Below are positions 5,785-50,700 of a DNA stretch of 64,000 nt, piece after piece. The stretch is from Anadara kagoshimensis (taxonomy: Eukaryota; Mollusca; Bivalvia; Arcoida; Arcidae), in the NCBI GenBank assembly GCA_021292105.1, contig CM037869.1:1258001-1322000 (forward strand), in the 5' to 3' direction. A program made the translations under genes and the position numbers. The notes beneath the pieces were generated by a model, which was given only the letters and a program-made list of their open reading frames with translations, was not told the origin of the DNA and ran no database searches. Within the stretch, counting starts at the first letter, position 1; each line of letters opens with the position of its first letter.

Positions 5785-5940
5785 TCACTTATATCCAGAC
5801 GTCGCCAGCTATATAGGCGAAGTGACAAGATTTTTACCATGCGGGCTCTTAAGTGTGACATAAGGCATCGGCCAGGATTCGAACATCGACCTCCTATAGA
5901 AGTAGCGAGCGTTTTACCAACTGAGCAACCGCAGTAGTAC
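5785..5940 (-). mobile_element. tRNA-derived SINE (minus strand)
   Basis: On the minus strand from about 5938 the sequence reads as a tRNA-like head. There is an A-box-like gttgctcagttggtaaaacg and, about 40 nt later, a B box gatgttcgaatcctggcc. A body follows and ends in the core ctggcgacgtctggatataa. The same core recurs near 12150, 48930 and 50820. No CCA-competent cloverleaf is evident, so this is a SINE and not a working tRNA gene. Confidence 0.75.
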
Positions 5941-7587: not shown

Positions 7588-7868
7588 TGACCAGGTAAGT
7601 GTGTTACATAACAAGTGAATTCAGACCAGGTAAGTGTGTTACATAACAAGTGAATTCAGACCAGGTAAGTGTGTTACATAACAAGTTAATTCAGACCAGG
7701 CAAGTGTGTTACATAACAAGTGAATTCAGACCAGGTAAGTGTGTTACATAACAAGTGAATTCAGACCAGGTAAGTGTGTTGCATAACAAGTGAATTCAGA
7801 CCAGGTAAGTGTGTTACATAAGTGAATTCAGACCAGGTAAGTGTGTTACATTACAAGTGAATTCAGAA
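7588..7868 (+). repeat. 35-bp minisatellite, eight copies, each with a splice-donor motif
   Basis: The unit ccaggtaagtgtgttacata recurs every 35 bp from 7591. One copy has lost 6 bp. Every unit contains CAGGTAAG(T), which matches the metazoan 5' splice-site consensus; one unit reads caggcaag. Confidence 0.95.
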
Positions 7869-15270: not shown

Positions 15271-16281
15271 GCTATATGGGTAAGATGTTAGAATAAAGAA
15301 AAAGCATGGTATGTACATCTATTGCTATATGGGTAAGATGTTAGCATTAAGAAAAAGCATGGTATGTACATCTATTGCTATATGGGTAAGATGTTAGCAT
15401 TAAGAAAAAGCATGGTATGTACATCTATTGCTATATGGGTAAGATGTTAGCATTAAGAAAAAGCATGGTATGTACATCTATTGCTATATGGGTAAGATGT
15501 TAGCATTAAGAAAAAGCATGGTATGTACATCTATTGCTATATGGGTAAGATGTTAGCATTAAGAAAAAGCATGGTATGTACATCTATTGCTATATGGGTA
15601 AGATGTTAGCATTAAGAAAAAGCATGGTATGTACATCTATTGCTATATGGGTAAGATGTTAGCATTAAGAAAAAGCATGGTATGTACATCTATTGCTATA
15701 TGGGTAAGATGTTAGCATTAAGAAAAAGCATGGTATGTACATCTATTGCTATATGGGTAAGATGTTAGCATTAAGAAAAAAGCATGGTATGTACATCTAT
15801 TGCTATATGGGTAAGATGTTAGCATTAAGAAAAAGCATGGTATGTACATCTATTGCTATATGGGTAAGATGTTAGCATTAAGAAAAAGCATGGTATGTAC
15901 ATCTATTGCTATATGGGTAAGATGTTAGCATTAAGAAAAAGCATGGTATGTACATCTATTGCTATATGGGTAAGATGTTAGCATTAAGAAAAAGCATGGT
16001 ATGTACATCTATTGCTATATGGGTAAGATGTTAGCATTAAGAAAAAGCATGGTATGTACATCTATTGCTATATGGGTAAGATGTTAGCATTAAGAAAAAG
16101 CATGGTATGTACATCTATTGCTATATGGGTAAGATGTTAGCATTAAGAAAAAGCATGGTATGTACATCTATTGCTATATGGGTAAGATGTTAGCATTAAG
16201 AAAAAGCATGGTATGTACATCTATTGCTATATGGGTAAGATGTTAGCATTAAGAAAAAGCATGGTATGTACATCTATTGCA
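15271..16281 (+). repeat. 53-bp minisatellite, 19 nearly identical copies
   Basis: The unit gctatatgggtaagatgtta is repeated every 53 bp from 15271 to about 16280. The first unit differs at two bases (gaataaag) and one central unit has an extra A. The rest appear identical, which points to recent expansion or active homogenisation. Each unit holds ATGGGTAAGATG, a weaker donor-like motif. Confidence 0.97.
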
Positions 16282-21664: not shown

Positions 21665-22490
21665 GTAACCGACAATCAGGCTCAGATCCGACACATAGGA
21701 CACACCGACAATCAGGCTTAGATCCGACACATAGGACACACCGACAATCAGGCTTAGATCCGACATATAGGGCACACCGACAATCTGGTGCAGATTCGAC
21801 ACATAGGACACACCGACAATCAGGCTCAGATCCGACACATAGGACACACCGACAAACAGGCTTAGATCCGACATAAAGGGCACACCGACAATCTGGTGCA
21901 GATTCGACACATAGGACACACCGACAATCAGGCTCAGATCCGACATATAGGGCACACCGACAATCTGGTGCAGATCCGACACATAGGACACACCGACAAT
22001 CAGGCTCAGATCCGACACATAGGACACACCGACAATCAGGCTCAGATCCGACACATAGGACACACCGACAATCAGGCTTAGATCCGACACATAGGACACA
22101 CCGACAATCAGGCTTAGATCCGACATATAGGGCACACCGACAATCTGGTGCAGATTCGACACATAGGACACACCGACAATCAGGCTCAGATCCGACACAT
22201 AGGACACACCGACAATCAGGCTTAGATCCGACATATAGGGCACACCGACAATCTGGTGCAGATTCGACACATAGGACACACCGACAATCAGGCTCAGATC
22301 CGACATATAGGGCACACCGACAATCTGGTGCAGATCCGACACATAGGACACACCGACAATCAGGCTCAGATCCGACACATAGGACACACCGACAATCAGG
22401 CTCAGATCCGACACATAGGACACACCGACAATCAGGCTTAGATCCGACATATAAGGCACACCGACAATCAGGCTCAGATCCGACACATAT
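21665..22490. repeat. 36-bp minisatellite, about 23 copies, with a 360-bp higher-order repeat
   Basis: The unit gacaatcaggctcagatccg plus acacataggacacacc repeats every 36 bp. Variants (aatctggtgcagattcg, atatagggc) recur in the same order 360 bp apart: 21896-22081 matches 22256-22441. Ten units were therefore duplicated as a block. Because 36 is a multiple of three, several frames on both strands stay open (up to about 300 codons). These are artefacts of the period. The array lies about 600 bp beyond the stop codon of the 23094 gene. Confidence 0.95.
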
Positions 22491-23093: not shown

Positions 23094-23869
23094 TTAGTTC
23101 GTTCTGAGAAGATGTAAATAAAACACAAACTGTATAATATCTGGGAGTACTAATAAACTAAGAACTGTGACCAAGAAGGCAACACCAAAATATCCAACCA
23201 CTGTTGATGACGTTCTCTCATCTTGAACACTGATTTTCTCACGGATGGTTGACGATAACGTACTGGTGTTAAGCAGTAGTTCTTTGGTTATGTTTTTAAC
23301 ACTTTCCGTTATATATTGTTGTTGTTCTGTCTCGGATAAAGCATTCCATGTTTCTGCGGCTCGTAAACTTTCACAGCTACAAAGGCACATGTTTGACGGT
23401 TCTGTTGTACCTTGTTCTCTGGATGTTGTAGCAATTGTTGAGTCCAATTGTGTCGTCATTGGATGAGGTGTTGTTGTGTCAAATTGTGTCATCATAGGTT
23501 CAGATGTTGTTTCCGATTGTGTCGTCATAGGTTCAGATGTTGTTGTTTCCGATTGTGTCGTCATTGGCCCAGATATTGTTGTTTCCGATTGTGTTGTCAT
23601 AGGTTCAGATGTTGTATCATGTTTTGTTGTCTGTTCTTCTACTGTCGTTGTGTCCGTAGCAAATTCATGTGTTGTTTCGTGATCCATGGTTTCTAATACA
23701 GCTACACCACCCAGTGCTTGTGCTGGTGTTGTTGCCTGTATTGTAGATGTAGTCGATTCCATTTCCGCTTCCGTCTGTATTGTAGTTGTTGTCGAGTCCA
23801 TTTCCGCTTCCGTCTGTATTGTAGTTGTTGTCGAGTCCATTTCCGCTTCCGTGGTCACAACAGGATCTT
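23094..23869 (-). CDS. Last exon: Thr-rich stalk, CxCxC, transmembrane tail
   Basis: A clean exon of 776 nt follows the acceptor TTTATTATAG| and ends in a stop at 23096-23094. It enters one base into a codon. The first 160 residues are dominated by Thr, Ser and Glu, including three copies of a 13-residue unit (TEAEMDSTTTTIQ type) and four to five SEPMTTQSETT-type units, typical of an O-glycosylated mucin stalk. Then come CLCSC, a Trp-containing acidic helix, NIT and NTS N-glycosylation sites, DERTSS, and a hydrophobic segment of about 20 residues (VVGYFGVAFLVTVLSLLVL). The frame also runs 23 codons upstream into the intron to an ATG at 23939, so a short single-exon form cannot be excluded. 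Confidence 0.8.
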
Positions 23870-26800
23870 CTATAATAAATAATTTAAATCTGAGTATAAC
23901 AATTGTTATGACGTAAAACGCGTATTTGACAATAACCAAGGTAACAAGAAATTACACATGCTGAAACCAAGGCAACGTGACATAACGCATGCTGAAACCA
24001 AGGCACTTCGATTTAACAAAAGGTGTAACCAAGGCAACATGGTGGAACAAATAGTAGAACCAAGGCAACACAATACACACAAGGGAAATAAGACGCACGT
24101 GATAAAATATATTGAGAACAAACGTAAACGTAATAAAGTCGAAAACATCCAATTCATCACAGTATTGATAAGTTGGATTTCTCTGTGTCTAGGATTGCCC
24201 TGGATATATTTCACGTTCCATAGTTCCATGTTCCTTTCACTCATTTTAGATTACACACGTGGCGGGTGAAGCTACCTAAACAGGAGGTGCTTACCCTTCC
24301 TGAGCACCCGGCCTCACTTTCCTGGTGATAGTTCACGTGTCTAACCTAACTTGTCAGTTCCAGTATTTACTTTGCTTCTGGATTGTGATTCGGACATAGA
24401 TAAGTATGTTTGTTTTTGATCATATAAGTCTTATTAGCCCTAAACTTTGAGTTCTACCAGTGTTTCATAAAGTATCCATCTTTAGGGTATATGCCCATGC
24501 TCATTTCAACCAGTGCTTGATAAAGTATCCATCTTTAGAGTATAGCCCATGTTAATTTCAACCAGTGTTTCATAAAGTATCCATCTTTAGAGTATAGCCC
24601 ATGTTAATTTCGACGTAACTGGTCTTACAGCTTGATTAGAGGCATTCATTTAGTTTAATTTTTGTTCTAGAGAAGTTCAGGGTATTTTAGGTTAAAGAAT
24701 CTTGACTAGTTCGTAAAATCCCATTGCTCCACTCCTTTATCCTTGACGCAAGTTTATGACGTCACAAAAACACAAGGTGACTTATCAACAATATTATTGC
24801 ACTATATTTTATACAAACACCAAAAATGTGGTAAACGCTTTCACGTGTTCCTTTCTTACAATTTTAATTACACACGTGACGGGTGTAGCTAGCTTAACAG
24901 GAAACGCTTACACTTACGGAACACCTGACCTCACTTCCATGGTGGAAGATCACGTGTCTAACCTAACTTGTCAGTTCCAAAGTTTTTACTTTGCTTCTGG
25001 ATTTTGATTCGGACATGGATTAGTATGTTTGTTTTTGATCATATTAAGTCTTATTAGCCCTAAACTTTGATTTCCATCAGTGTTTCATATAGTATAATTT
25101 AGATGTAATTCAGCTTGATTAGAAGCATTCATTTAGTTTAACTTTTGTTCTAGAGAAGTTTAAGGTATTTTAAGTTAAAGAATCTTGACTAGTGCGTAAA
25201 ACTCCATTTCTCCACCCCTTCATCTTTAACGCAAGTTTATGGCGTCATGAAAAACACAAGGTGACCTACCAACACTATTATTGCACTATATTTTATACAA
25301 ACACCAAAAGGGGTAAACGTTAACAAAGAAAAAGTCTGAATTATCTTACCGTAATAAGCCCTCACTTTTAAATGTGGCACGATAATTAAAGGCCATGCTG
25401 AAATAAAGCATTAAAAGAATTATAGAGAATCGGTTGAAAAGACACAATTACAAGATGGGGGATTTTAAAGGAAAAGAAAAGTCTGTAAAGAAACATTTAA
25501 TAATACGCATTTCTTGATCATAGTTCAATGTTCCTTTCTTACAATTTTGATTACACACGTGGCGGGTGTAGCTAGCTAAACTGGAGGTGCTTACCCTTCC
25601 GGAGCACCCGACCTCACTTCCCTGGTCGAAGCTCCCGTGTCTAACCACCTGACTTGTTCAGTTTCAAAGTATTTACTTTGCTTCTGGATTGTGATTCGTA
25701 CATGGATTAGTGTGTTTGTTTTTGTTCATGAGCTTGATGAGAGAAAGAATATTTTTTTAAACTTATTACACGATATAACGTAAGTGATATCCGTTACTCC
25801 TACAGATTAATTATGTCCTTGTTTGCATTCAACAATCGACGACGTAAAATGAAATAATCACAAAAAAGTTTTGTACCCCTAATGATTGAACCCGTGTCTG
25901 AAACGAATACGATTGTTCCTGTCAGGATAGGGTAACTTACCATCATTTCCGCAACTTCGTCGACCAGGAAATTTTATATTGACTTACTATTGGTTTCAGC
26001 TAAGTCAAGATGTGTCATCTTGAATGTTGAGGGATAGGGGACACGGGAGGATAACGACCTTTCCCGGACAATATAACTGAGAAACCTTCTCATTATAAAT
26101 CTCTATATGTAGTGATCAAGCTTAGACAAAATGAGACATTAAAATCCATACGCCGATGTTAAGACCCTCTACAACCTGAGACATTGAAATCCATACGCCG
26201 ATGTTTAGACCCTCTACAACCTGAGACATTGATGTTAAGACCCTCTACAACCTGAGACATTGAAATCCATACGCCGATGTTAAGACACTCTACAACCTGA
26301 GACATTGAAATCCATACGCCGATGTTAAGACACTCTACAACCTGAGACATTGAAATCCATACGCCGATGTTAAGACCCTCTACAACCTCAACAACCTTTT
26401 TTGGACCAATAATACAAATAATAAACAACACTGACCTGAAACGTAGATTTTGTAATTTACTGTAGTAATTGGACAAGAAAATATAAATGTTATTGTGGCT
26501 GCTCGGATTATTGAAATATTATGTCTGACGCCATCACAACGTTCTGTAAATTCATTCTGTAAATAAAAGATAAAATATCAAAATAGTCCTTAAATAAGAT
26601 ATTCTTTTTCAAAATTTTATTCGATCCTTAATAAATCCGATATATATTTCAAATTCAAATCACATATACATTTTCTGAACATAAATGCAAATATTATCAT
26701 GTATATTATAATCGTAAAAATTGCCACTTGTGCTTTTTCCGGGGTATGTATATAGAAAGAAAAAAGTTCTATTTTTCGATAAAATCTTATAGTTTCTATA

Positions 26801-29800
26801 CAGGCTTGGTAAGAAGGTTGTATATTTTTCATGCTGCATGTATGGATATAGTATTTTGCTATAAGTAAACATGAGTTTACAACATTTAAATTAGAGTCGT
26901 TACTTTTTATACCAAAAGCAGGTTTTCCGTGGTATTTTCAATTTTTATATTGGTTTGTACTCTAATGTCTTCTAAAAGTTGATACCATATAGACTTTACA
27001 CATGAACATTCAATAAAGAGATGAGTAACTGTTTCCTTCGTTTCTGAACAAAATGTACACAATTCAGTTTCGTATAATTTACTCTGCATAAGTTTGATGT
27101 TTGTAAAGTAAATACCATGGTTGAGTTTAAATTAAAACGACCTTAGTTTTGTATCTTCTGTTATTCTAAATGGTATAATGTATATATAATTCCAATGTTC
27201 ATCTGTAAACTATAGATTCAGTTTAACTCTCCATCTTTCTTGCGAATTAGGCTTTTGATATATTTTGTTTATAAAAAGACGGTAGAAATGTTTTGTGATA
27301 TTTTCCGAAGTTTTTAATTATTGTATTAGCGGATGATGTACCTGAGGTATTGGACTTGCAATAGGATATTCCTTATTTTAAACCTGGCAAATTTTGGCAA
27401 CTGATTTCGAGACTACAAATCAACGCTTTTGACAAAACAATTACAAATGCTATAAATAAGTTTGCCGTGATCTAAAATGAAACATTAAATTTCAGAATAT
27501 CTTAAAAATTGGCGAAGTTATTGCGATTTCAAATTTTCCAGATTCACGTTAAGGAAAAGCTTAATAAAGAAATGAGTGTGAAACTGGAGCCAGTACGGTA
27601 AGCAGATACTTAATCGGACAAACCTAGTGAACATTGTGAGAAAGATACTATATTAAAAGTATTCAAAAAATTTATTACTAATATCTACATTGAATATTTT
27701 GCTTACACCATACCTAGAGAACATCTAACTGCTTTCTAAGGAATGGAAGCGATAGACGCTGCTACTACAAATGTCCACAGCTGAGACAAAGACAAAATAT
27801 ACAATATACTGTACATCGCGTGCGCCCGTAATTTAACATGTTAACATTGTATGTTACAGAGAAGTCTATCTTGTAGTTACAGTGATAACTGCTAGTGACG
27901 TCTACTTACCAGTGTGTGGTTGTATGTTACAGAGAAGTCTATCTTGTAGTTACAGTGATAACTGCTAGTGACGTCTACTTACCAGTGTGTGGTTGTATGT
28001 TACAGAGAAGTCTATCTTGTAGTTACAGTGATAACTGCTAGTGACGTCTACTTACCAGTGTGTGGTTGTATGTTACAGAGAAGTCTATCTTGTAGTCACA
28101 CTGATAACTGCTAGGGACGTCTACTTACCAGTGTGTGGTTGTATGTTACAGAGAAGTCTATCTTGTAGTCACACTGATAACTGCTAGTGACGTCTACTTA
28201 CCAGTGTGTGGTTGTATGTTACAGAGAAGTCTATCTTGTAGTTACAGTGATAACTGCTAGTGACGTCTACTTACCAGTGTGTAGTTGTATGTTACAGAGA
28301 AGTCTATCTTGTAGTTACAGTGATAACTGCTAGTGACGTCTACTTACCAGTGTGTAGTTGTATGTTACAGAGAAGTCTATCTTGTAGTCACACTGATAAC
28401 TGCTAGGGACGTCTACTTACCAGTGTGTAGTTGTATGTTACAGAGAAGTCTATCTTGTAGTCACACTGATAACTGCTAGGGACGTCTACTTACCAGTGTG
28501 TAGTTGTATGTTACAGAGAAGTCTATCTTGTAGTTACACTGATAACTGCTAGGGACGTCTACTTACCAGTGTGTGGTTGTATGTTACAGAGAAGTCTATC
28601 TTGTAGTCACACTGATAACTGCTAGGACGTCTACTTACCAGTGTGTAGTTGTATGTTACAGAGAAGTCTATCTTGTAGTACAGTGATAACTGCTAGTGAC
28701 GTCTACTTACCATGTGTAGTTGTATGTTACAGAGAAGTCTATCTTGTAGTCACACTGATAACTGCTAGGGACGTCTACTTACCAGTGTGTAGTTGTATGT
28801 TACAGAGAAGTCTATCTTGTAGTCACACTGATAACTGCTAGTGACGTCTACTTACCAGTGTGTGGTTGTATGTTACAGAGAAGTCTATCTTGTAGTAACA
28901 CTGATAACTGCTAGTGACGTCTACTTACCAGGGTTACTTTACACTGTTGTAGGATTATGTTGTGGTTGTATGTTACAGAGAAGACTATCTTGTAGTTACA
29001 TGATAACTGCTAGTGACGTCTACTTACCAGTGTGTAGTTGTATGTTACAGAGAAGACTATCTTGTAGTTACAATGATAACTGCTAGTGACGTCTACTTAC
29101 CAGTGTGTGGTTGTATGTTACAGAGAAGTCTATCTTGTAGTTACACTGATAACTGCTAGGGACGTCTACTTACCAGTGTGTGGTTGTATGTTACAGAGAA
29201 GTCTATCTTGTAGTTACACTGATAACTGCTAGGGACGTCTACTTACCAGTGTGTGGTTGTATGTTACAGAGAAGACTATCTTGTAGTCACACTGATAACT
29301 GCTATGGACGTCTACTTACCAGTGTGTAGTTGTATGTTACAGAGAAGTCTATCTTGTAGTTCACACTGATAACTGCTAGTGACGTCTACTTACCAGTGTG
29401 TGGTTGTATGTTACAGAGAAGTCTATCTTGTAGTACACTGATAACTGCTAGTGACGTCTACTTACCAGGGTGTGGTTGTATGTTACAGAGAAGACTATCT
29501 TGTAGTTACACTGATAACTGCTAGTGACGTCTACTTACCAGTGTGTAGTTGTATGTTACAGAGAAGACTATCTTGTAGTTACAATGATAACTGCTAGTGA
29601 CGTCTACTTACCAGTGTGTGGTTGTATGTTACAGACAAGACTATCTTGTAGTTACAGTGATAACTGCTAGTGACGTCTACTTACCAGTGTGTGGTTGTAT
29701 GTTACAGAGAAGTCTATCTTGTAGTCACACTGATAACTGCTATGGACGTCTACTTACCAGTGTGTAGTTGTATGTTACAGAGAAGTCTATCTTGTAGTCA

Positions 29801-32800
29801 CACTGATAACTGCTAGTGACGTCTACTTACCAGTGTGTGGTTGTATGTTACAGAGAAGTCTATCTTGTAGTAACACTGATAACTGCTAGTGACGTCTACT
29901 TACCAGGGTGTGGTTGTATGTTACAGAGAAGACTATCTTGTAGTTACACTGATAACTGCTAGTGACGTCTACTTACCAGTGTGTAGTTGTATGTTACAGA
30001 GAAGACTATCTTGTAGTTACAATGATAACTGCTAGTGACGTCTACTTACCAGTGTGTGGTTGTATGTTACAGAGAAGACTATCTTGTAGTTACAATGATA
30101 ACTGCTAGGGACGTCTACTTACCAGTGTGTGGTTGTATGTTACAGAGAAGACTATCTTGTAGTTACAATGATAACTGCTAGGGACGTCTACTTACCAGTG
30201 TGTGGTTGTATGTTACAGAGAAGACTATCTTGTAGTCACACTGATAACTGCTAGGGACGTCTACTTACCAGTGTGTGGTTGTATGTTACCGATAAGTCTA
30301 TCTTGTAGTTACACTGATAACTGCTAGGGACGTCTACTTATCAGTGTGTGGTTGTATGCTACAGAGAAGTCTATTTTGTAGTAACACTGATAACTGCTAG
30401 TGACGTCTACTTACCAGTGTGTGGTTGTATGTTACAGAGATGTCTATCTTGTAGTCACACTGATAACTGCTAGTGACGTCTACTTACCAGTGTGTGGTTG
30501 TATGTTACAGAGAAGACTATCTTGTAGTAACACTGATAACTGCTAGTGACGTCTACTTACCAGTGTGTAGTTGTATGTTACAGAGAAGTCTATCTTGTAA
30601 TTACACTGATAACTGCTAGTGACGTCTACTTACCAGTGTGTGGTTGTATGTTACAGAGAAGACTATCTTGTAATTACAGTGATAACTGCTAGTGACGTCT
30701 ACTTACCAGTGTGTGGTTGTATGTTACAGAGAAGTCTATCTTGTAGTAACACTGATAACTGCTAGTGACGTCTACTTACCAGTGTGTGGTTGTATGTTAC
30801 AGAGAAGTCTATCTTGTAGTAACACTGATAACTGCTAGTGACGTCTACTTACCAGTGTGTGGTTGTATGTTACAGAGAAGACTATCTTGTAGTAACACTG
30901 ATAACTGCTAGTGATGTCTACTTACCAGTGTGTGGTTGTATGTTACAGAAAAGACTATCTTGTAGTTACAGTGATAACTGCTAAGGACGTCTACTTACCA
31001 GTGTGTGGTTGTATGTTACAGAGAAGTCTATCTTGTAGTAACACTGATAACTGCTAGGGACGTCTACTTACCAGTGTGTGGTTGTATGTTACAGAGAAGT
31101 CTATCTTGTAGTAACACTGATAACTGCTAGGGACGTCTACTTACCAGTGTGTGGTTGTATGTTACAGAGAAGACTATCTTGTAGTTACACTGATAACTGC
31201 TAGGGACGTCTACTTACCAGTGTGTGGTTGTACGTTACAGAGAAGACTATCTTGTAGTTACACTGATAACTGCTAGGGACGTCTACTTACCAGTGTGTGG
31301 TTGTATGTTACAGAGAAGTCTATCTTGTAGTTACACTGATAACTGCTAGGGACGTCTACTTACCAGTGTGTGGTTGTATGTTACAGAGAAGTCTATCTTG
31401 TAGTAACACTGATAACTGCTAGGGACGTCTACTTACCAGTGTGTGGTTGTATGTTACAGAGAAGACTATCTTGTAGTTACACTGATAACTGCTAGTGACG
31501 TCTACTTACCAGTGTGTGGTTGTATGTTACAGAGAAGTCTATCTTGTAGTTACACTGATAACTGCTAGGGACGTCTACTTACCAGTGTGTGGTTGTATGT
31601 TACAGAGAAGTCTATCTTGTAGTTACACTGATAACTGCTAGGGACGTCTACTTACCAGTGTGTGGTTGTATGTTACAGAGAAGTCTATCTTGTAGTTACA
31701 CTGATAACTGCTAGTGACGTCTACTTACCAGTGTGTGGTTGTATGTTACAGAGAAGTCTATCTTGTAGTTACACTGATAACTGCTAGGGACGTCTACTTA
31801 CCAGTGTGTGGTTGTATGTTACAGAGAAGTCTATCTTGTAGTTACACTGATAACTGCTAGGGACGTCTACTTACCAGTGTGTGGTTGTATGTTACAGAGA
31901 AGACTATCTTGTAGTTACACTGATAACTGCTAGTGACGTCTACTTACCAGTGTGTGGTTGTATGTTACAGAGAAGTCTATCTTGTAGTTACACTGATAAC
32001 TGCTAGGGACGTCTACTTACCAGTGTGTGGTTGTATGTTACAGACAAGTCTATCTTGTAGTCACACTGATAACCGCTAGGGACGTCTACTTACCAGTGTG
32101 TGGTTGTATGTTACAGAGAAGTCTATCTTGTAGTCACACTGATAACTGCTAGGGACGTCTACTTACCAGTGTGTGGTTGTATGTTACAGAGAAGTCTATC
32201 TTGTAGTTACACTGATAACTGCTAGGGACGTCTACTTACCAGTGTGTGGTTGTATGTTACAGAGAAGTCTATCTTGTAGTTACACTGGTAACTGCTAGGG
32301 ACGTCTACTTACCAGTGTGTGGTTGTATGTTACAGAGAAGTCTATCTTGTAGTTACACTGATAACTGCTAGGGACGTCTACTTACCAGTGTGTGGTTGTA
32401 TGTTACAGAGAAGTCTATCTTGTAGTTACACTGATAACTGCTAGGGACGTCTACTTACCAGTGTGTGGTTGTATGTTACAGAGAAGTCTATCTTGTAGTT
32501 ACACTGATAACTGCTAGGGACGTCTACTTACCAGTGTGTGGTTGTATGTTACAGAGAAGTCTATCTTGTAGTTACACTGATAACTGCTAGTGACGTCTAC
32601 TTACCAGTGTGTGGTTGTATGTTACAGAGAAGTCTATCTTGTAGTTACACTGATAACTGCTAGGGACGTCTACTTACCAGTGTGTGGTTGTATGTTACAG
32701 AGAAGTCTATCTTGTAGTTACACTGATAACTGCTAGGGACGTCTACTTACCAGTGTGTGGTTGTATGTTACAGAGAAGACTATCTTGTAGTTACACTGAT

Positions 32801-35800
32801 AACTGCTAGTGACGTCTACTTACCAGTGTGTGGTTGTATGTTATAGAGAAGTCTATCTTGTAGTTACACTGATAACTGCTAGGGACGTCTACTTACCAGT
32901 GTGTGGTTGTATGTTACAGAGAAGTCTATCTTGTAGTAACACTGATAACTGCTAGGGACGTCTACTTACCAGTGTGTGGTTGTATGTTACAGATAAGTCT
33001 ATCTTGTAGTCACACTGGTAACTGCTAGGGACGTCTACTTACCAGTGTTTAGTTGTATGTTACAGAGAAGTCTATCTTGTAGTCACACTGATAACTGCTA
33101 GTGACGTCTACTTACCAGTGTGTGGTTGTATGTTACAGAGAAGTCTATCTTGTAGTAACACTGATAACTGCTAGGGACGTCTACTTACCAGTGTGTGGTT
33201 GTATGTTACAGAGAAGACTATCTTGTAGTTACACTGATAACTGCTAGGGACGTCTACTTACCAGTGTGTGGTTGTATGTTACAGAGAAGTCTATCTTGTA
33301 GTAACACTGATAACTGCTAGGGACGTCTACTTATCAGTGTGTGGTTGTATGTTACAGACAAGTCTATCTTGTAGTCACACTGATAACTCCTAGTGACGTC
33401 TACTTACCAGTGTGTGGTTGTATGTTACAGAGAAGACTATCTTGTAGTCACACTGATAATTATAACTGCTAGGGACGTCTACTTACCAGTGTGTGGTTGT
33501 ATGTTACAGAGAAGACTATCTTGTAGTCACACTGATAACTGCTAGTGACGTCTACTTACCAGTGTGTGGTTGTATGTTACAGAGAAGTCTATCTTGTAGT
33601 AACACTGATAACTGCTAGGGACGTCTACTTATCAGTGTGTGGTTGTATGTTACAGACAAGTCTATCTTGTAGTCACACTGATAACTCCTAGTGACGTCTA
33701 CTCACCAGTGTGTGGTTGTATGTTACAGAGAAGTCTATCTTGTAGTTACACTGATAACTGCTAGGGACGTCTACTTACCAGTGTGTAGTTGTATGTTACA
33801 GAGAAGTCTATCTTGTAGTCACACTGATAACTGCTAGGGACGTCTACTTACCAGTGTGTGGTTGTATGTTACAGAGAAGACTATCTTGTAGTCACACTGA
33901 TAACTGCTAGGGACGTCTACTTACCAGTGTGTGGTTGTATGTTACAGATAAGTCTATCTTGTAGTCACACTGATAACTGCTAGGGACGTCTACTTACCAG
34001 TGTGTGGTTGTATGTGACAGAGAAGTCTATCTTGTATTTACACTGATAACTGCTAGTGACGTCTACTTACCAGTGTGTAGTTGGATGTTACTGATAAATC
34101 TATCTTGAAGTTACACTGATAACTGCTATGGACGTCTACTTACCAGTGTGTGGTTGTATGTTACAGAGAAGTCTATCTTGTAGTTACACTGATAACTGCT
34201 AGGGACGTCTACTTACCAGTGTGTAGTTGTATGTTACAGAGAAGTCTATCTTGTAGTTACACTGATAACTGCTAGTGACGTCTACTTACCAGTGTGTAGT
34301 TGTATCTTATAGAGAAGACTATCTTGTAGTCACACTGATAACTGCTAGGGACGTCTACTTACCAGTGTGTAGTTGTATGTGACAGAGAAGACTATCTTGT
34401 AGTAACACTGATAACTGCTAGGGACGTCTACTTACCAGTGTGTGGTTGTATGTTACAGAGAAGACTATCTTGTAGTTACACTGATAACTGCTAGGGACGT
34501 CTACTTACCAGTGTGTGGTTGTACGTTACAGAGAAGACTATCTTGTAGTTACACTGATAACTGCTAGGGACGTCTACTTACCAGTGTGTGGTTGTATGTT
34601 ACAGAGAAGTCTATCTTGTAGTTACACTGATAACTGCTAGGGACGTCTACTTACCAGTGTGTGGTTGTATGTTACAGAGAAGTCTATCTTGTAGTAACAC
34701 TGATAACTGCTAGGGACGTCTACTTACCAGTGTGTGGTTGTATGTTACAGAGAAGACTATCTTGTAGTTATACTGATAACTGCTAGTGACGTCTACTTAC
34801 CAGTGTGTGGTTGTATGTTACAGAGAAGTCTATCTTGTAGTTACACTGATAACTGCTAGGGACGTCTACTTACCAGTGTGTGGTTGTATGTTACAGAGAA
34901 GTCTATCTTGTAGTTACACTGATAACTGCTAGGGACGTCTACTTACCAGTGTGTGGTTGTATGTTACAGAGAAGTCTATCTTGTAGTTACACTGATAACT
35001 GCTAGTGACGTCTACTTACCAGTGTGTGGTTGTATGTTACAGAGAAGTCTATCTTGTAGTTACACTGATAACTGCTAGGGACGTCTACTTACCAGTGTGT
35101 GGTTGTATGTTACAGAGAAGTCTATCTTGTAGTTACACTGATAACTGCTAGGGACGTCTACTTACCAGTGTGTGGTTGTATGTTACAGAGAAGACTATCT
35201 TGTAGTTACACTGATAACTGCTAGTGACGTCTACTTACCAGTGTGTGGTTGTATGTTACAGAGAAGTCTATCTTGTAGTAACACTGATAACTGCTAGGGA
35301 CGTCTACTTACCAGTGTGTGGTTGTATGTTACAGAGAAGACTATCTTGTAGTTATACTGATAACTGCTAGTGACGTCTACTTACCAGTGTGTGGTTGTAT
35401 GTTACAGAGAAGTCTATCTTGTAGTTACACTGATAACTGCTAGGGACGTCTACTTACCAGTGTGTGGTTGTATGTTACAGAGAAGTCTATCTTGTAGTTA
35501 CACTGATAACTGCTAGGGACGTCTACTTACCAGTGTGTGGTTGTATGTTACAGAGAAGTCTATCTTGTAGTTACACTGATAACTGCTAGTGACGTCTACT
35601 TACCAGTGTGTGGTTGTATGTTACAGAGAAGTCTATCTTGTAGTTACACTGATAACTGCTAGGGACGTCTACTTACCAGTGTGTGGTTGTATGTTACAGA
35701 GAAGTCTATCTTGTAGTTACACTGATAACTGCTAGGGACGTCTACTTACCAGTGTGTGGTTGTATGTTACAGAGAAGACTATCTTGTAGTTACACTGATA

Positions 35801-38800
35801 ACTGCTAGTGACGTCTACTTACCAGTGTGTGGTTGTATGTTACAGAGAAGTCTATCTTGTAGTTACACTGATAACTGCTAGGGACGTCTACTTACCAGTG
35901 TGTGGTTGTATGTTACAGACAAGTCTATCTTTTAGTCACACTGATAACCGCTAGGGACGTCTACTTACCAGTGTGTGGTTGTATGTTACAGAGAAGTCTA
36001 TCTTGTAGTCACACTGATAACTGCTAGGGACGTCTACTTACCAGTGTTTAGTTGTATGTTACAGAGAAGTCTATCTTGTAGTCACACTGATAACTGCTAG
36101 TGACGTCTACTTACCAGTGTGTGGTTGTATGTTACAGAGAAGTCTATCTTGTAGTAACACTGATAACTGCTAGGGACGTCTACTTACCAGTGTGTGGTTG
36201 TATGTTACAGAGAAGTCTATCTTGTAGTTACATTATAACTGCTAGGGACGTCTACTTACCAGTGTGTGGTTGTATGTTACAGAGAAGTCTATCTTGTAGT
36301 CACACTGATAACTGCTAGGGACGTCTACTTACCAGTGTGTGGTTGTATGTTACAGATAAGTCTATCTTGTAGTCACACTGGTAACTGCTAGGGACGTCTA
36401 CTCACCAGTGTGTGGTTGTATGTTACAGACAAGTCTATCTTGTAGTCACACTGATAACTGCTAGGGACGTCTACTTACCAGTGTGTGGTTGTATGTTACA
36501 GATAAGACTATCTTGTAGTCACACTGATAACTGCTAGGGACGTCTACTTACCAGTGTGTGGTTGTATGTTACAGAGAAGACTATCTTGTAGTTACACTGA
36601 TAACCGCTAGGGACGTCTACTTACCAGTGTGTGGTTGTATGTTACAGAGAAGACTATCTTGTAGTTACACTGATAACTGCTAGGGACGTCTACTTACCAG
36701 TGTGTGGTTGTATGTTACAGAGAAGTCTATCTTGTAGTCACACTGATAACTGCTAGCGACGTCTACTTACCAGTGTGTAGTTATATGTTACAGAGAAGTC
36801 TATCTTGTAGTCACACTGATAACTGCTAGGGACGTCTACTTACCAGTGTGTAGTTATATGTTACAGAGAAGTCTATCTTGTAGTCACACTGATAACTGCT
36901 AGGGACGTCTACTTACCAGTGTGTGGTTGTATGTTACAGAGAAGTCTATCTTGTAGTTACACTGATAACTGCTAGGGACGTCTACTTACCAGTGTGTGGT
37001 TGTATGATACAGAGAAGTCTATCTTGTAGTTACACTGATAACTGCTAGGGAAGTCTACTTATCAGTGTGTAGTTGTATGTTACAGAGAAGTCTATCTTGT
37101 AGTTACACTGATAACTGCTAGGGACGTCTACTTACCAGTGTGTGGTTGTATGTTACAGAGAAGTCTATCTTGTAGTTACAGTGATAACTGCTAGGGACGT
37201 CTACTTATCAGTGTGTGGTTGTATGTTACAGAGAAGTCTATCTTGTAGTTACAGTGATAACTGCTAGGGACGTCTACTTATCAGTGTGTAGTTGTATGTT
37301 ACAGAGAAGTCTATCTTGTAGTCACACTGATAACTGCTAGGGACGTCTACTTACTAGTGTGTGGTTGTATGTTACAGAGAAGTCTATCTTGTAGTTACAC
37401 TGATAACTGCTAGTGACGTCTACTTACCAGTGTGTGGTTGTATGTTACAGAGAAGTCTATCTTGTAGTTACACTGATAACTGCTAGTGACGTCTACTTAC
37501 CAGTGTGTGGTTGTATGTTATAGAGAAGACTATCTTGTAGTCACACTGATAACTGCTAGGGACGTCTACTTACCAGTGTGTGGTTGTATGTTACAGAGAA
37601 GACTATCTTGTAGTCACACTGATAACTGCTAGGGACGTCTACTTACCAGTGTGTGGTTGTATGTTACAGAGAAGTCTATCTTGTAGTTACACTGATAACT
37701 GCTAGTGACGTCTACTTAACAGTGTGTGGTTGTATGTTACAGAGAAGTCTATCTTGTAGTTACACTGATAACTGCTAGGGACGTCTACTTACCAGTGTGT
37801 GGTTGTATGTTACAGAGAAGTCTATCTTGTAGTTACAATGATAACTGCTAGGGACGTCTACTTACCAGTGTGTGGTTGTATGTTACAGAGAAGTCTATCT
37901 TTTAGTTACACTGATAACTGCTAGGGACGTCTACTTATCAGTGTGTGGTTGTATGTTACAGAGAAGTCTATCTTGTAGTTACACTGATAACTGCTAGGGA
38001 CGTCTACTTACCAGTGTGTGGTTGTATGTGACAGAGAAGTCTATCTTGTAGTTACACTGATAACTGCTAGGGACGTCTACTTACCAGTGTGTGGTTGTAT
38101 GTTACAGAGAAGTCTATCTTGTAGTTACACTGATAACTGCTAGTGACGTCTACGTACCAGTGTGTGGTTGTATGTTACAGAGAAGACTATCTTGTAGTCA
38201 CACTGATAACTGCTAGGGACGTCTACTTACCAGTGTGTGGTTGTATGTTACAGAGAAGTCTATCTTGTAGTTACACTGATAACTGCTAGTGACGTCTACT
38301 TACCAGTGTGTGGTTGTATGTTACAGAGCAATCTATCTTGTAGTTACACTGATAACTGCTAGGGACGTCTACTTACCAGTGTGTAGTTGTATGTGACAGA
38401 GAAGATTATCTTGTAGTTACACTGATAACTGCTAGGGACGTCTACTTACCAGTGTGTAGTTGTATGTTACAGAGAAGTCTATCTTGTAGTTACACTGATA
38501 ACTGCTAGGGACGTCTACTTACCAGTGTGTGGTTGTATGTTACAGACAAGTCTATCTTGTAGTTACACTGATAACTGCTAGGGACGTCTACTTACCAGTG
38601 TGTGGTTGTATGTTACAGAGAAGTCTATCTTGTAGTTACACTGATAACTGCTAGGGACGCTTACTTACCAGTGTGTGGTTGTATGTTACAGAGAAGTCTA
38701 TCTTGTAGTTACACTGATAACTGCTAGGGACGTCTACTTACCAGTGTGTGGTTGTATGTTACAGAGAAGTCTATCTTGTAGTCACACTGATAACTGCTAG

Positions 38801-39690
38801 GGACGTGTACTTATCAGTGTGTAGTTGTATGTTACAGAGAAGTCTATCTTGTAGTTACACTGATAACTGCTAGGGACGTCTACTTACCAGTGTGTGGTTG
38901 TATGTTACAGAGAAGTCTATCTTGTAGTTACACTGATAACTGCTAGGGACGTCTACTTACCAGTGTGTGGTTGTATGTTACAGACAAGTCTATCTTGTAG
39001 TTACAGTGATAACTGCTAGGGACGTCTACTTACCAGTGTGTGGTTGTATGTTACAGACAAGTCTATCTTGTAGTTACACTGATAACTGCTAGGGACGTCT
39101 ACTTACCAGTGTGTGGTTGTATGTTACAGAGAAGTCTATCTTGTAGTCACACTGATAACTGCTAGGGACGTCTACTTATCAGTGTGTAGTTGTATGTTAC
39201 AGAGAAGTCTATCTTGTAGTTACATTGATAACTGCTAGGGACGTCTACTTACCCGTGTGTGGTTGTATGTTACAGAGAAGACTATCTTGTAGTAACACTG
39301 ATAACTGCTAGGGACGTCTACTTACCAGTGTGTAGTTGTATGTTATAGAGAAGCCAATCTTGTAGCCACACTGATGATTATAACTGCAAGTGGCGTCTAC
39401 GGATACAGCGTGTACATATACTGGATTTGATATATTGAGTGGAACCTTTAAAGAAAATATTATAATAAAGGTGTCAAAATGAGATACATGTGTGTTGATT
39501 TCTGTGTAAAGTAGCAGAACTCTAACAAAACACAGCTCGGTACGTTTATTTGATTACAAAGGCATTGTTATATTTTTTGTTTGAAATCGAATTTTAAAAT
39601 AATAATAATAATAATAATTGTATTTGAAGTAGAATTTGAAAAAGTATATAATAATAACATCTGTTGAAATAGAATTTGAAAAAAAATATT

Positions 39691-39742
<52 letters not shown>

Positions 39743-41287
39743 TCAAATAAAAAATTACTGGAGACGAGAAGGGTCAACAAAAATAAAAAATATAACTGGT
39801 GCGCACGAGATACTAACTTGTCCGCACAAGTTAGTAACTCGTGCGCTGAAGTTATATTTTTTATTTTTAGACTTCTCGTCTTCCGTAAAAAATACATAAT
39901 ATATAAATCCGATGTTACAGGCAAACAACATTGACCTGTCCGCTTGACCTTTAATTTAAATATTAATTATGGACGAGTACATATAAGTTATAGGTATAAG
40001 GCGTGTATATTTTGTCCATATGATGTAAAATCTAACCATTGGCAATTTAATGCAATGTGTATATGTATTAACTGTAAATCCTTACGTTACCTATGTATTG
40101 GTTGGATCCTCCTATATGAAGATTTCTAATGAAAGGTCAACCAGGCAGGTCAATGTTGTTTACCTATTTAGAAAATATTTACCATGGTTACTACTCACAT
40201 GTAGATAATTACTAGGAAACAATGACTGTACACTGTCCTCTTTATATAGAACTGTTTCCAGTCCAAAATTGTATGTATCTGAAAATATTAAATATAAAAT
40301 AAGCCCAGTCATATTGATAGTAGTATTCTTCCGGAGCATCCGGCCTTACTTTCCAGGCCAAAGATGTTCCGCGTGCTTATTAACATTTTCCGGTTTTCAA
40401 AGTTTTTACTTTCCCAATAACAGGTTCTAGTGTTTGTTTATAGTAATCAAAGTAACAGTATTCTTGCATTGAAAGCGTGCGACACATTTTATATGGAAAC
40501 CCGGTTTGATGTTCTAGAATTTTATGCAAAAAATAAAACTAAACTTATTATGTTCAATGTTTGTAAGAGATATATTATGAAAATAGAATACTTTTCAAAA
40601 CACATACTTCAAAAAATTCAAAGTGTGATACCTAATAAGACAATTCAAACCTGTCTATACAGACAAACGGTACAGGTGTCTTTATAGACAGGTGGTTCTT
40701 ATATACAGCTACAAACAACATAGATAAAGAACAGGTTGGATATTGTACTCTCAGAAGAATTTTTAAAATACATTGGCCACAGAAGGTCGCAAATGAAGAA
40801 GTAAGAACAAGAGTCAGAGCAGAAAAAAATCAAAATCACAATAAAAACTAGAAAAACCGTGAGCCACAAGCTCACAAAAAATGGGCCTATAGAATGTAAA
40901 TTTAAGACAGGTTTGACTGTACTTACTCTACAAATAATATGGGGATGATAACATTTATGATACCCATGTCAATATAAATTCTACATTCTACATTACTACA
41001 TGTCACTTAAACTGAAGAAAAAATGAACAAAATACTTACCACTATTTTTCCAGATGTATTGAGGATAGCTGTCAGTTGTCATAACTGTTACATATCCGTA
41101 TTGTGTAGTGTACAAATGAGCAAACCAAACCTTATCATCTCTTACTGGTTGTCCTGGGGAATAGTTCGATATAAACAACACTTCTCCTTTCCTGAAAAAA
41201 TACCGAAATTAACGACATTATAATAAGTATTTTCAATCATGGTTGAAAATTAGCATTGGAATGTTTCATGAACTTTTGATATCACAG

Positions 41288-45730: not shown

Positions 45731-47337
45731 CTGTTCAATATATATGCTCATCAAAATGTATGTATCGTTGTATTATCGTTAGTTTTTGTGTTAAATACTA
45801 AGTATATATTGAATACGAAATAAACAAAATAAATATATAAAAAAAATTATAATTAGAAAGTAAATATAGAGCCATTTAAGTATTGTTTTTAAAACATGTT
45901 GGGGGTTATAAAGTAATAAACAAGATAGTAGAACACCAACGATAGATTATAACAGTCCGTCTTTTCATTTGTTGTGGAAGAAAAGCGCATTTTGTCATTG
46001 TCAAGTTTCTATTACTTTCACAATTCATTGGATCTATCGTTTCAGGAAAGAGAGATGATACGAAAAGCGACAATTTTGTTGCAAACTTTCTAAAATGGTA
46101 AGAATGGCATTGGAAAAATGTGAAAACTGAAAATAAAATGTTCTTCCGCAAAAAATGAAACGTGACGGCTGATATGGGTCTTTGTACTTATAACATCTAA
46201 GTAATATAAACACTGCGTAGGCTATAAAACTCTTGACTAAAAAGATCTAGTGGCGTCGTTACAACTTTTGTGGCGACAAATACAAACATAGGAAGAACCG
46301 AAACAATACCATTTGAAATAAAGTTTGATGAAAAACTTATTCTACCTAGACTTTTTTGTTTGTTGAACATTATTAATTTTTCTATATTTCAGCTTTGGAA
46401 ATACATCGATTGAAAATTGATTTCACAATGACAATATCTTGGTTAATGGTCTTTATAGCATTATTTTGATAAAAATTCAAAATCAGCACGTGACAGCAAT
46501 ATCATTGCAACAGAAACAATAACGGAGGTATTCCACCATTCTCAAAATTAGAGTGAAATGTTAGATCAAATGAATGACCCAAATATGGTGAAAATGTGAA
46601 CAAGGTTTGAGTTTAATCTTCAATATTCTTTCAGTCTTTTAGTTACTGTTATGAATATACGCCTTGGAGAACAACTTTTATTTTCAATACTCCGTATGAC
46701 CATATTTAGGAATAAACGTTGACGAGACTGATATATCATACCTTAGTAGAATGCTCATCGATGACAAACCATCTCTGATTCTCTCCGTGGTTAGCCAAGA
46801 ACTTGTGTCATAGGTAGCTCCATCTGTTTCCAAGTATTTAAGCATGAGGTAGCCACCATAGCCACTTGAATATGGCCCAAAAGCAATCTGAATAAACATG
46901 ATGACAAGAGAGTGTCTGATAACACCTTATAGATTTACGAAATCAGAAAAACATTGTTTTGTTCATAATCAGGGACTAATATTCCATTTTATACATTTTA
47001 CATGATATTACATTCTTATTATAAAAAAAAACAAACATACCAGTCCATGTCCAAATGGCAAACACAAACGGACAGTAAAAACCTAATTTAAAGTAACATC
47101 TGGTAAATTAAGATAACAACGGGTTAACTCCCAACTAGGAGTTAAAACACTACAAGTAGATGTCCAGTTTTATAACTGAAATAGCTTTATTTCTTCATAA
47201 TAAATCTGTTGAAAAATATTGTAATCTCTAAGAGTTCATCATCATCATGGCATCATCATCATCATCATCATATCATCATCATGACGTCATCATCATCATC
47301 ATCATCATCATCGTGACATCATATCATCATCATGACG

Positions 47338-47788: not shown

Positions 47789-50700
47789 GTGTTTAGCCTG
47801 AATTGTGGGAGGTATTTTAAAGCAGTCACGTTGTGCAGGTTTTGTTTTGAACGCAGCACGTTGCAGTGGATCTAGATTATTACCGATGACGGAGATGAAA
47901 CATTCCAATTGTCGATTTTATTACTCCGGAAGTGTTCTCCACCGGCGTAACTAGAATTGTACCATACATCTTCAAACCCTAACTGACTGTGGCTGGTATG
48001 GTAAACCAGAGCCTCCCAACTTCCGCCTACAAAATATAACAAGTCAACCACATAAATACTGGGCTATGTTCAAATCAAATTCCAAAAGTCACCCACAAAC
48101 ATATTGCTCCTTGTCCATTGCAAACATAACGGTCTATGTCCAAATCACCATTTTAAAAGTCAATCATAAACAAGCTGGTCTATCCTAATCACAATACCAA
48201 ATGTTGGCAAAACTCAAACACAAACATACCTTTCCATGTACAAATCGAAATCCCGAAAGTAAACCACAAACATATTGCTCCTTGTCCAAAAAGTCAACCA
48301 TAAACTTACCGATCCATGTCCAAATCACAATACCAAAACTCAAACACAAACATACCGTTCCACGTACAAATCACAATACTAAACTCAAACACAAACATAC
48401 CGTTCCACGTACAAATCACAATACTAAACTCAAACACAAACATACCGTTCCACGTACAAATCACAATACCAAAACTCAAACACAAACATACCGTTCCACG
48501 TACAAATCACAATACTAAACTCAAACACAAACATACCGATCAATGTCCAAATCAAAATCACAAAAGTCAACCACAAATATACTGGTCTTTTAGTCTAAAT
48601 CACAATCCCAAAAGCAAAGTAAAAACTTCGAAAAATGGCATATTTAGTTCAACACATGAACTTTCACTTTTTTAAGTGAGGTCGGGTGCCCCGGAAGGAT
48701 TGGCGCGTCCTTTAAATGTGCAGATCAATGAATAACTGACAAACAAGTTGTCGTTAAGTTAGCTGTAAAGAGGCCGAAATGTGTTAAAAAGAGGCGCTCT
48801 ATATTATCAAATTTGTTCTTGAAGACTCAAACACTTCGGAACCCCTCCAAAGTAGAACAAAATCCAGTCGTGATGATCGGATGAAAGTAGTATAACGTTA
48901 AGAATATTTCACTTATATCTAGACGTCACCAGCTATAGGTGAAGTGACAGACATTGCGATATTTGCATTGCGCTAGGGGCAATGTGTTAGGGGTTGTGGG
49001 ACCCCTATATGTAGTAATTACCACAAATGTAGTAACGGTCACAAATGTAATAAAATTGTGTCACATATGTAGTAACGAACCACAAATGTAGTAAGGTTTG
49101 TCACATATGTGGAAGCGCGTGGCCTAGTGGTTAAGGCGTTGTACTCATGATTCGAAGGCCGTGGGTTCGATCCCTGGACCGGGCGATGTGTTGTGTCCTT
49201 GAGCAAGACACTTAATTTCACGTTGTTCCAGTTCACTCAGCTGAAAAATAAATGAGTACCAGCAAAATCCTGGGGGTTAACCCTGCGATGGACCGGCGTC
49301 CCATTCAGGGGAGAGTCTTGTACTCTCAGTCGCTTAACGCCACAGAAACCGGGATAAGCTCCGGCCTGATGGGCCTAATGGCTCGGGACAGACTTTAACT
49401 TTAACTTTTTTTTGTCACATATGTAGTAAATGTTGGTCACAAATGTAGCAAAATTTTACCACAAATGTAGCAACAAAATTTTACCACAAATTTTCCACAA
49501 ATGTAGTAAAATTTAAAAAATGATAAAATATTTTTTTTCAAAATTGGTAATATCTAGGCTAGTGTTAATTAATGACAAGCACTGGTGTCTCTGTCAGGTA
49601 ATTTAAGGTATATCTGTCGGGTAATTTAAGGAATGGAACCCCAAACCCATATTATGCCTCGGTTTCAACCATGTTTAGCCAGAGTCAAATGCAAGTCGAT
49701 TTTTAAGTTCTAAGCTACTCATAACGATGTGGAATGACACGGTTCATGTTCATGTTAACAGTCATTTTCAGCTCTGACAAGGCTACTACAAGGATGTCCC
49801 GAGATGAATTTCACGTCCCCAGTACATTTATTAGTCGCCGCTTCGAAGAGATTTTTTTGGTCATACCCCAATCTTTGACGGGTTGAGTTCTCTTTATTTG
49901 TTATGGTTTGTTTGTTATTCCACTTCCAGGAAGGTTCGTAGGTTCTCAACCCGGGCAGGGTCTGACCAAGACTTAATAATGGTATTTTAAAATGAAAGCC
50001 ATTAGGGTAATTTGGAAAAGACCCTAAAACCAGGTGTGCCGCGTTAAGAACCCTAGCACATTCCATTGCACTCCATGGGTAAAACTTTCTGCCACTTTGC
50101 ATATAGCTGGTGAAGCCTTGATATAAGTAAAACATTTATTCAATTAACGGATCGATACTCCTGCAAATTACATGACGTCGGATCGACATTGAGATTTGTA
50201 TATTTATCAAGTCTTAAAAACGTGTAACTTTTGTACAAATCAAAATAGACAGTTTGTAGTGCTTCAATTAATCATAAAATGCATTCAAAAATGGTATTTT
50301 TGTCATGTACCATTTTTTGAATTTAATCATAAAATACATTCAAAAAATGGTATATGACAATAATATCATTTTTGAATGCATTTTATGATTAAATTCAAAA
50401 ATGGTATATGACAGAGTGATCAGATGACTTCGTGTGCGCGTGTTGGTGGGGTGAAGGGGGGGGGGGGGCTTATAACTAGACAATAACAAAATACAAAATA
50501 AAAAATTCTGATAATGGCTAAAGTATGAGAACCATCACTTAAAACCCACCCATAGCAATGCAAATTAAAAAATAATAAGCTAAGAATTAAGAAACAAAAT
50601 AAAACAATCTGAGTTTTTTAAAACTTCCGTTTAATTTAAACCGCAGACAAAAAAGAAAACCTTAAAGAAGTACCAAACTATGATCTCTTTCTAGCGGATT

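Follow-up and report, generated by a model that had tools for sequence, protein, structure and literature searches.

A 73-bp tandem array rich in splice-donor motifs that appears to derive from an exon–intron junction of a mucin-like gene in Anadara kagoshimensis

The window analysed here is the whole 64,000-nucleotide stretch of Anadara kagoshimensis contig CM037869.1 from position 1,258,001 to 1,322,000 (assembly GCA_021292105.1), and all coordinates below are counted from its first base. Its minus strand carries a gene for which eight exons, running from 48026 to 23094, were predicted. Joined together, the exons give a single open frame of 527 amino acids with GT-AG boundaries at all seven introns (7/7), and the product of this gene model is apparently mucin-like and membrane-anchored. 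In the direction of the gene, the predicted exons found were exon 1 (47884-48026, the first found, with no start of the gene located), exon 2 (46742-46887), exon 3 (41040-41191), exon 4 (40199-40278), immediately upstream of the exon at the array edge, and exon 5 (39326-39445), from which a large tandem array runs on directly. Downstream of the array are predicted exons of 121 nt (26436-26556) and 48 nt (25350-25397) and a last exon (23094-23869) that would encode a Thr/Ser-rich mucin-like stretch, a C-terminal segment judged hydrophobic by eye, and the stop; skipping of the 121-nt exon would shift the frame. The initial annotation had placed the array in an intron of a minus-strand mucin-like gene, which this predicted model bears out, and was silent on exon 5, the apparent source of both the repeated unit and its donor.

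Exon 5 comprises 120 nt, or 40 codons (VPLNISNPVYVHAVSVDATCSYNHQCGYKIGFSITYNYTL). Its acceptor reads TTTTCTTTAAAG/ and its donor CTG/GTAAGT (the slash marking the junction), within a 3' end of CACACTG/GTAAGT; by sequence and gene model, the exon's own GTAAGT (39320-39325) is the first of the array. The only frame open through the exon is the one that is needed, and its phase fits both neighbouring exons, making it very probable that 39445-39326 is a coding exon.

The gene's protein was searched against several databases. Pfam returned DUF7167 alone, with an E-value of 0.069, below the cut-off, and the best match in the PDB had an E-value of 0.37. Against the genome at E <= 0.001, only six of the gene's own exons were recovered (55 candidates scored). 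A search with 107 aa as query, run at E <= 10, recovered three exons of the gene, numerous array units and a handful of weak hits at other places, the best of these at E 0.21.

The array occupies ~11.5 kb inside the gene. Wrap-around alignment, spanning 39413 to 27847 on the minus strand, resolved a tandem array at 39404-27847 that consists of one divergent exon copy followed by 157 units of ~73 bp, hence 158 copies in all, the last unit being partial. Tandem Repeats Finder likewise reported a period of 73 at 27847-28931 (97% matches) and at 28961-39375 (96% matches), so that the ~158 head-to-tail units of 73 bp originally described are confirmed as 157 plus the divergent copy. Column counts showed the donor hexamer GTAAGT intact in 144 of the 157 units, in agreement with the sense-strand donor motifs first noted in the array, and its GT intact in 147; the nine-base CTGGTAAGT is present in 141. 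There are 136 exact occurrences of the 16-mer CACTGGTAAGTAGACG in the window, and the genome as a whole (1.115 Gb, 36 contigs, exact matches only) contains the same number, indicating that exact copies are found at this array alone.

Variation among the units is concentrated at columns 14, 28, 32, 45, 49 and 65, where column 1 is the G at position +1 of the donor. No variant is seen in 33 of the 73 columns, and the columns with one variant or none total 47. The initial annotation had described a near-constant donor among other positions that toggle; variation is indeed gathered at a few columns, but most columns are as good as invariant and the donor G itself varies in 10 of the 157 units. Units 51-58 are identical to units 59-66, a block copy which shows that the array grew by multi-unit blocks besides single units.

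The exon offers a plausible source for the unit. Its end aligns with the unit, the divergent copy starting at 39404 being the last part of exon 39445-39326. Exon and unit share GTAGACG, and three of the four bases that precede it differ (ATCC in the exon, GTAA in the unit); identity over GTAGACG with mismatch before it is the reason for placing the breakpoint there. By this breakpoint, 69 positions of each unit seem to be exon-derived and four intron-derived. The exon copy differs from the unit consensus at 12 columns, three of which (1, 3 and 4) lie before the proposed breakpoint. At some of these columns the base of the exon is kept by a minority of the 157 units, namely at column 14 (A, 51 units), column 32 (G, 40 units) and column 65 (T, 28 units). 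Columns with at least three variants make up 6 of the 12 that differ from the exon, as against 7 of the other 61.

We therefore consider it highly likely that the array is a tandem expansion of the exon end together with its donor, followed by a loss of 6 nt and growth in unit number, with the donors inherited passively. A tandem duplication across the exon–intron junction would have copied the last 75 nt of exon 39445-39326 and the first four intron bases (GTAA), giving a founding unit of 79 bp that was then shortened by 6 nt to 73 bp. Unequal exchange or slippage would have expanded this unit to 157 units, and homogenisation would hold the copies alike. A donor would be found in nearly every unit because the founding segment included the exon's own, and accordingly the first donor seems to be that of the exon and the 143 other intact donors its copies. 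Unit 83 (33408-33486) is 79 bp long and contains a 6-bp stretch resembling that of the exon; among repeat matches to the exon peptide it scores highest (E 0.0025, one internal stop), and it may preserve the founding length. Against this history, the array breaks off within a unit at its far end, which hides the start of the original intron beyond GTAA. The array itself, the resemblance of its unit to the exon end, the lack of special donor conservation and the in-frame stop are read directly from the sequence, and from these features we infer the exon status, the order of events, the choice of donor and the effects on splicing.

Part of the evidence can also be read in the opposite direction, with an older satellite whose edge was captured by the gene as an exon (exonisation). 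Because the length of exon 5 is divisible by three, the frame would be open without it as well, and a dispensable exon of 120 nt counts against an exon-first origin, as does the fact that at columns 12, 17, 33, 43 and 45, five of the nine differing columns past the breakpoint, the base of the exon is absent from every unit. An exon captured from a satellite would, moreover, sit where this one does, at the array edge, the place of greatest expected unit divergence, and would lack relatives: none were found in Pfam, in the PDB or in the genome at E <= 0.001, the 107-aa query adding only array units and weak places. Against exonisation, the repeat alignment does not reach the first 32 nt of the exon (45 nt by the proposed breakpoint), and the states of the exon persist as minorities within the array, which also contains the 79-bp form in unit 83. 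On balance we regard a satellite-first history as unlikely, and favour growth of the array from the exon end.

We next consider whether the donor is better conserved than the rest of the unit, having been singled out initially as an almost constant segment. Variant cells number 13 in GTAAGT, a count undercut by 35 of the 73 six-base windows; in column permutations, p was 0.54 when all variants were counted and 0.53 when kinds of change were. Its conservation is thus mid-rank and not above that of the unit at large. Similarly, 21 of the 73 nine-base windows are less variable than CTGGTAAGT. The 16-base stretch highlighted in the initial annotation is quieter, with 23 variant cells, lower counts in only 3 of 73 16-base windows and ties in 2 others, and the six lowest windows of this size all overlap the donor. 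This is nevertheless within chance: 19% of random 16-column sets are as quiet (p 0.19), and 98% of column permutations contain a window that is no more variable than the quietest one observed (21 variant cells). Quiet windows are common by chance because 47 of the 73 columns have no more than one variant. Selection on the donor is accordingly not supported by variant counts, by windows of six, nine and 16 bases or by permutations, although the 16-base stretch falls in the quietest region.

These counts bear directly on the proposal that the donors are kept by selection as decoys, with U1 snRNP binding to them and blocking early polyadenylation or slowing splicing. Retention of GTAAGT in 144 of 157 units, and the position of the 16-base stretch in the quietest part of the unit, speak for such a role. 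The duplex with the U1 end has an energy of -10.7 kcal/mol for both the unit and the first donor, which is close to the strongest donor scored in the gene and ranks second among the seven scored. In addition, all AATAAA and ATTAAA hexamers of the intron follow just after the array, in a minus-strand stretch at 26616-27676 (first bases of AATAAA at 27676 and 26621, of ATTAAA at 27318), and neither hexamer occurs in the array. The same variant counts speak against the proposal, since the hexamer, the nine-base motif and the 16-base stretch are each matched by other windows or random column sets at the frequencies given above; the G at +1 is altered in 10 of 157 units, and there is no AATAAA, ATTAAA or TATAAA in the consensus unit that could be masked. 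Selection for decoys therefore appears very improbable.

Units with a dead donor are unevenly spread, with 7 among the first 40 (units 5, 10, 22, 25, 31, 32 and 34) and 3 among the other 117. Considering only changes of G to A at +1, the first 40 units contain 6 and the remaining 117 contain 3 (Fisher p 0.009); this is one of 15 such tests and counts related units. The excess near the exon is only a hint, attributable to chance or to selection against close decoys.

On the reading that the array is an expanded exon end, the first donor would be authentic and define the 120-nt exon, a length usual for an exon, and the array would be removed as intron. Reading on past the first donor in the frame of the exon gives VSRRP and then a stop. 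Occasional use of a later donor would thereby add one or more units and end in VSRRP and the stop, resulting in a shortened ectodomain or in decay of the transcript, and a longer array may also favour skipping of the next exon, as in human ABCA7. Most splicing is likely to use the first donor, with retention of one unit or skipping of the next exon in some transcripts; the array itself is most probably a passive by-product and may cause aberrant splicing at a low level. A more elaborate role, in which array length acts as a splicing switch and longer arrays, through competition among identical donors and a lengthened intron, give a shortened ectodomain with a VSRRP tail or loss of the next exon, seems to us improbable; were it true, a fast-changing repeat would tune a mucin-like surface protein.

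Splicing of the units as micro-exons is another reading. Exons of 45 nt, from an acceptor at column 28, or of 33 nt, from one at column 40, would insert CNYKIDFSVTYNHTL or IDFSVTYNHTL in frame and so make the ectodomain variable; the 40-nt micro-exon originally suggested after ACTACAAG would in fact be 33 nt long. Each of the two lengths is divisible by three and leaves the frame of the exon without a stop. Judged by pyrimidines alone (8 of 13 positions, the best of the unit's AG sites), the column-28 site is comparable with the gene's eight acceptors, which have 7 to 10. The AG sites of the unit, however, lack a T-rich tract and have other AGs close upstream, few positions vary as much as the G of the AG at column 28 (21 of 157 units), and splicing between adjacent units would leave introns of just 28-40 nt. 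We regard micro-exons as extremely unlikely and retain passive inheritance of the donor.

Other arrays with donor-like words were also surveyed. In the genome, the triple word GGTAAGT gave 8412 matches against 2962 for its reversed control and near 5800 for two permuted controls (AGTGATG, 5826, and its reverse, 5777), and CAGGTAAGT gave 936 against 179 for the reversed control; these are counts of matches and not of arrays, and the first ~100 places among the matches listed are filled by few arrays. As single words in a 200-kb sample, GGTAAGT was found 16 times, TGAATGG 28, AGTGATG 23 and GTAGTGA 22, and none of the 60 arrays of that sample contained GTAAGT. Within the window, GGTAAGT is present in 5 of 45 array entries, three of which are the target array itself, with 0.28 expected for all.

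Several further arrays have features of their own. At 7589-7867 on the plus strand of the window, a 35-bp tandem unit is present in ~8 copies, seven of them with the donor consensus CAG/GTAAGTGTG, and no clear exon was found upstream. The plus strand also bears, at 15271-16280, a 53-bp unit in 19 copies (99% matches) with GG/GTAAGA in all 19; upstream of it, one frame is open for at least 39 codons, a candidate exon at most. A 36-bp repeat of ~23 copies lies on the minus strand at 21668-22489, with two minus-strand frames open from stop to stop over 301 and 309 codons. Elsewhere in the genome, the matches listed include an array (G000:C2:18961718-18964680, minus strand) whose unit has TTTCAG abutting GTAAGT, an arrangement that we take to resemble a recursive-splicing ratchet point.

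The locus suggests that a large satellite-like array can arise from an exon–intron junction and thereby supply a gene with numerous identical donors. Given confirmation in RNA, it would offer a natural test of how the splicing machinery chooses among 144 such donors, and would parallel, in another organism, the disease-linked human ABCA7 repeat. A literature search found no paper combining all of the search terms, and a non-human case may be in print.

The IFI6 minisatellite with several splice donors, which Turri et al. are said to have described in 1995, is reportedly a short array of ~12-nt units that gives small in-frame isoforms; the array described here differs in its 73-nt units and in the stop after the first donor. 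The two are alike in that repeat units carry splice donors: two downstream repeat units of human IFI6 (6-16, G1P3) serve as splice donors and give rise to three mRNA species (PMC4526556). Duplicated exonic sequence is a further source of splice signals. A study of such tandem duplications mentions multiple 24-bp exonic duplicates in two fission-yeast genes (PMC4974935). In the usual model of intron gain, duplication of an exonic segment containing AGGT, which supplies both splice sites, yields a new intron. Compared with that model, the consensus unit here has no AGGT, its donor is CTG/GT and the array would enlarge an existing intron.

In human ABCA7, a 25-bp VNTR of intron 18 adjoins exon 18, whose canonical donor is the first GT of the repeat, and the largest allele measures 10,678 bp or ~427 units (PMC5954066). 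A cryptic donor one unit further on retains 25 bp, causing a frameshift and a premature stop; this one-unit retention is unchanged with length, whereas skipping of exon 19 rises with it (PMC5954066). The initial statement that no system of this kind has been described is contradicted by these accounts of an ABCA7 VNTR that takes in the exon 18 donor (PMC5954066) and of IFI6 repeat units that are themselves donors (PMC4526556). The present array resembles that of ABCA7 in adjoining an exon, here a predicted one, whose own donor is, at the level of sequence, the first of the repeat, and in repeating the donor in its units (GTAAGT in 144/157 and GT in 147/157). It differs from it in that the ABCA7 unit is 25 bp long, starts at the GT and is intronic, whereas 69 of 73 positions here seem exon-derived, and in that length variation and splicing of the ABCA7 repeat have been measured in people. 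The array can thus be regarded as being of the same kind as the ABCA7 and IFI6 cases, differing from them in a unit that would be mostly exon-derived.
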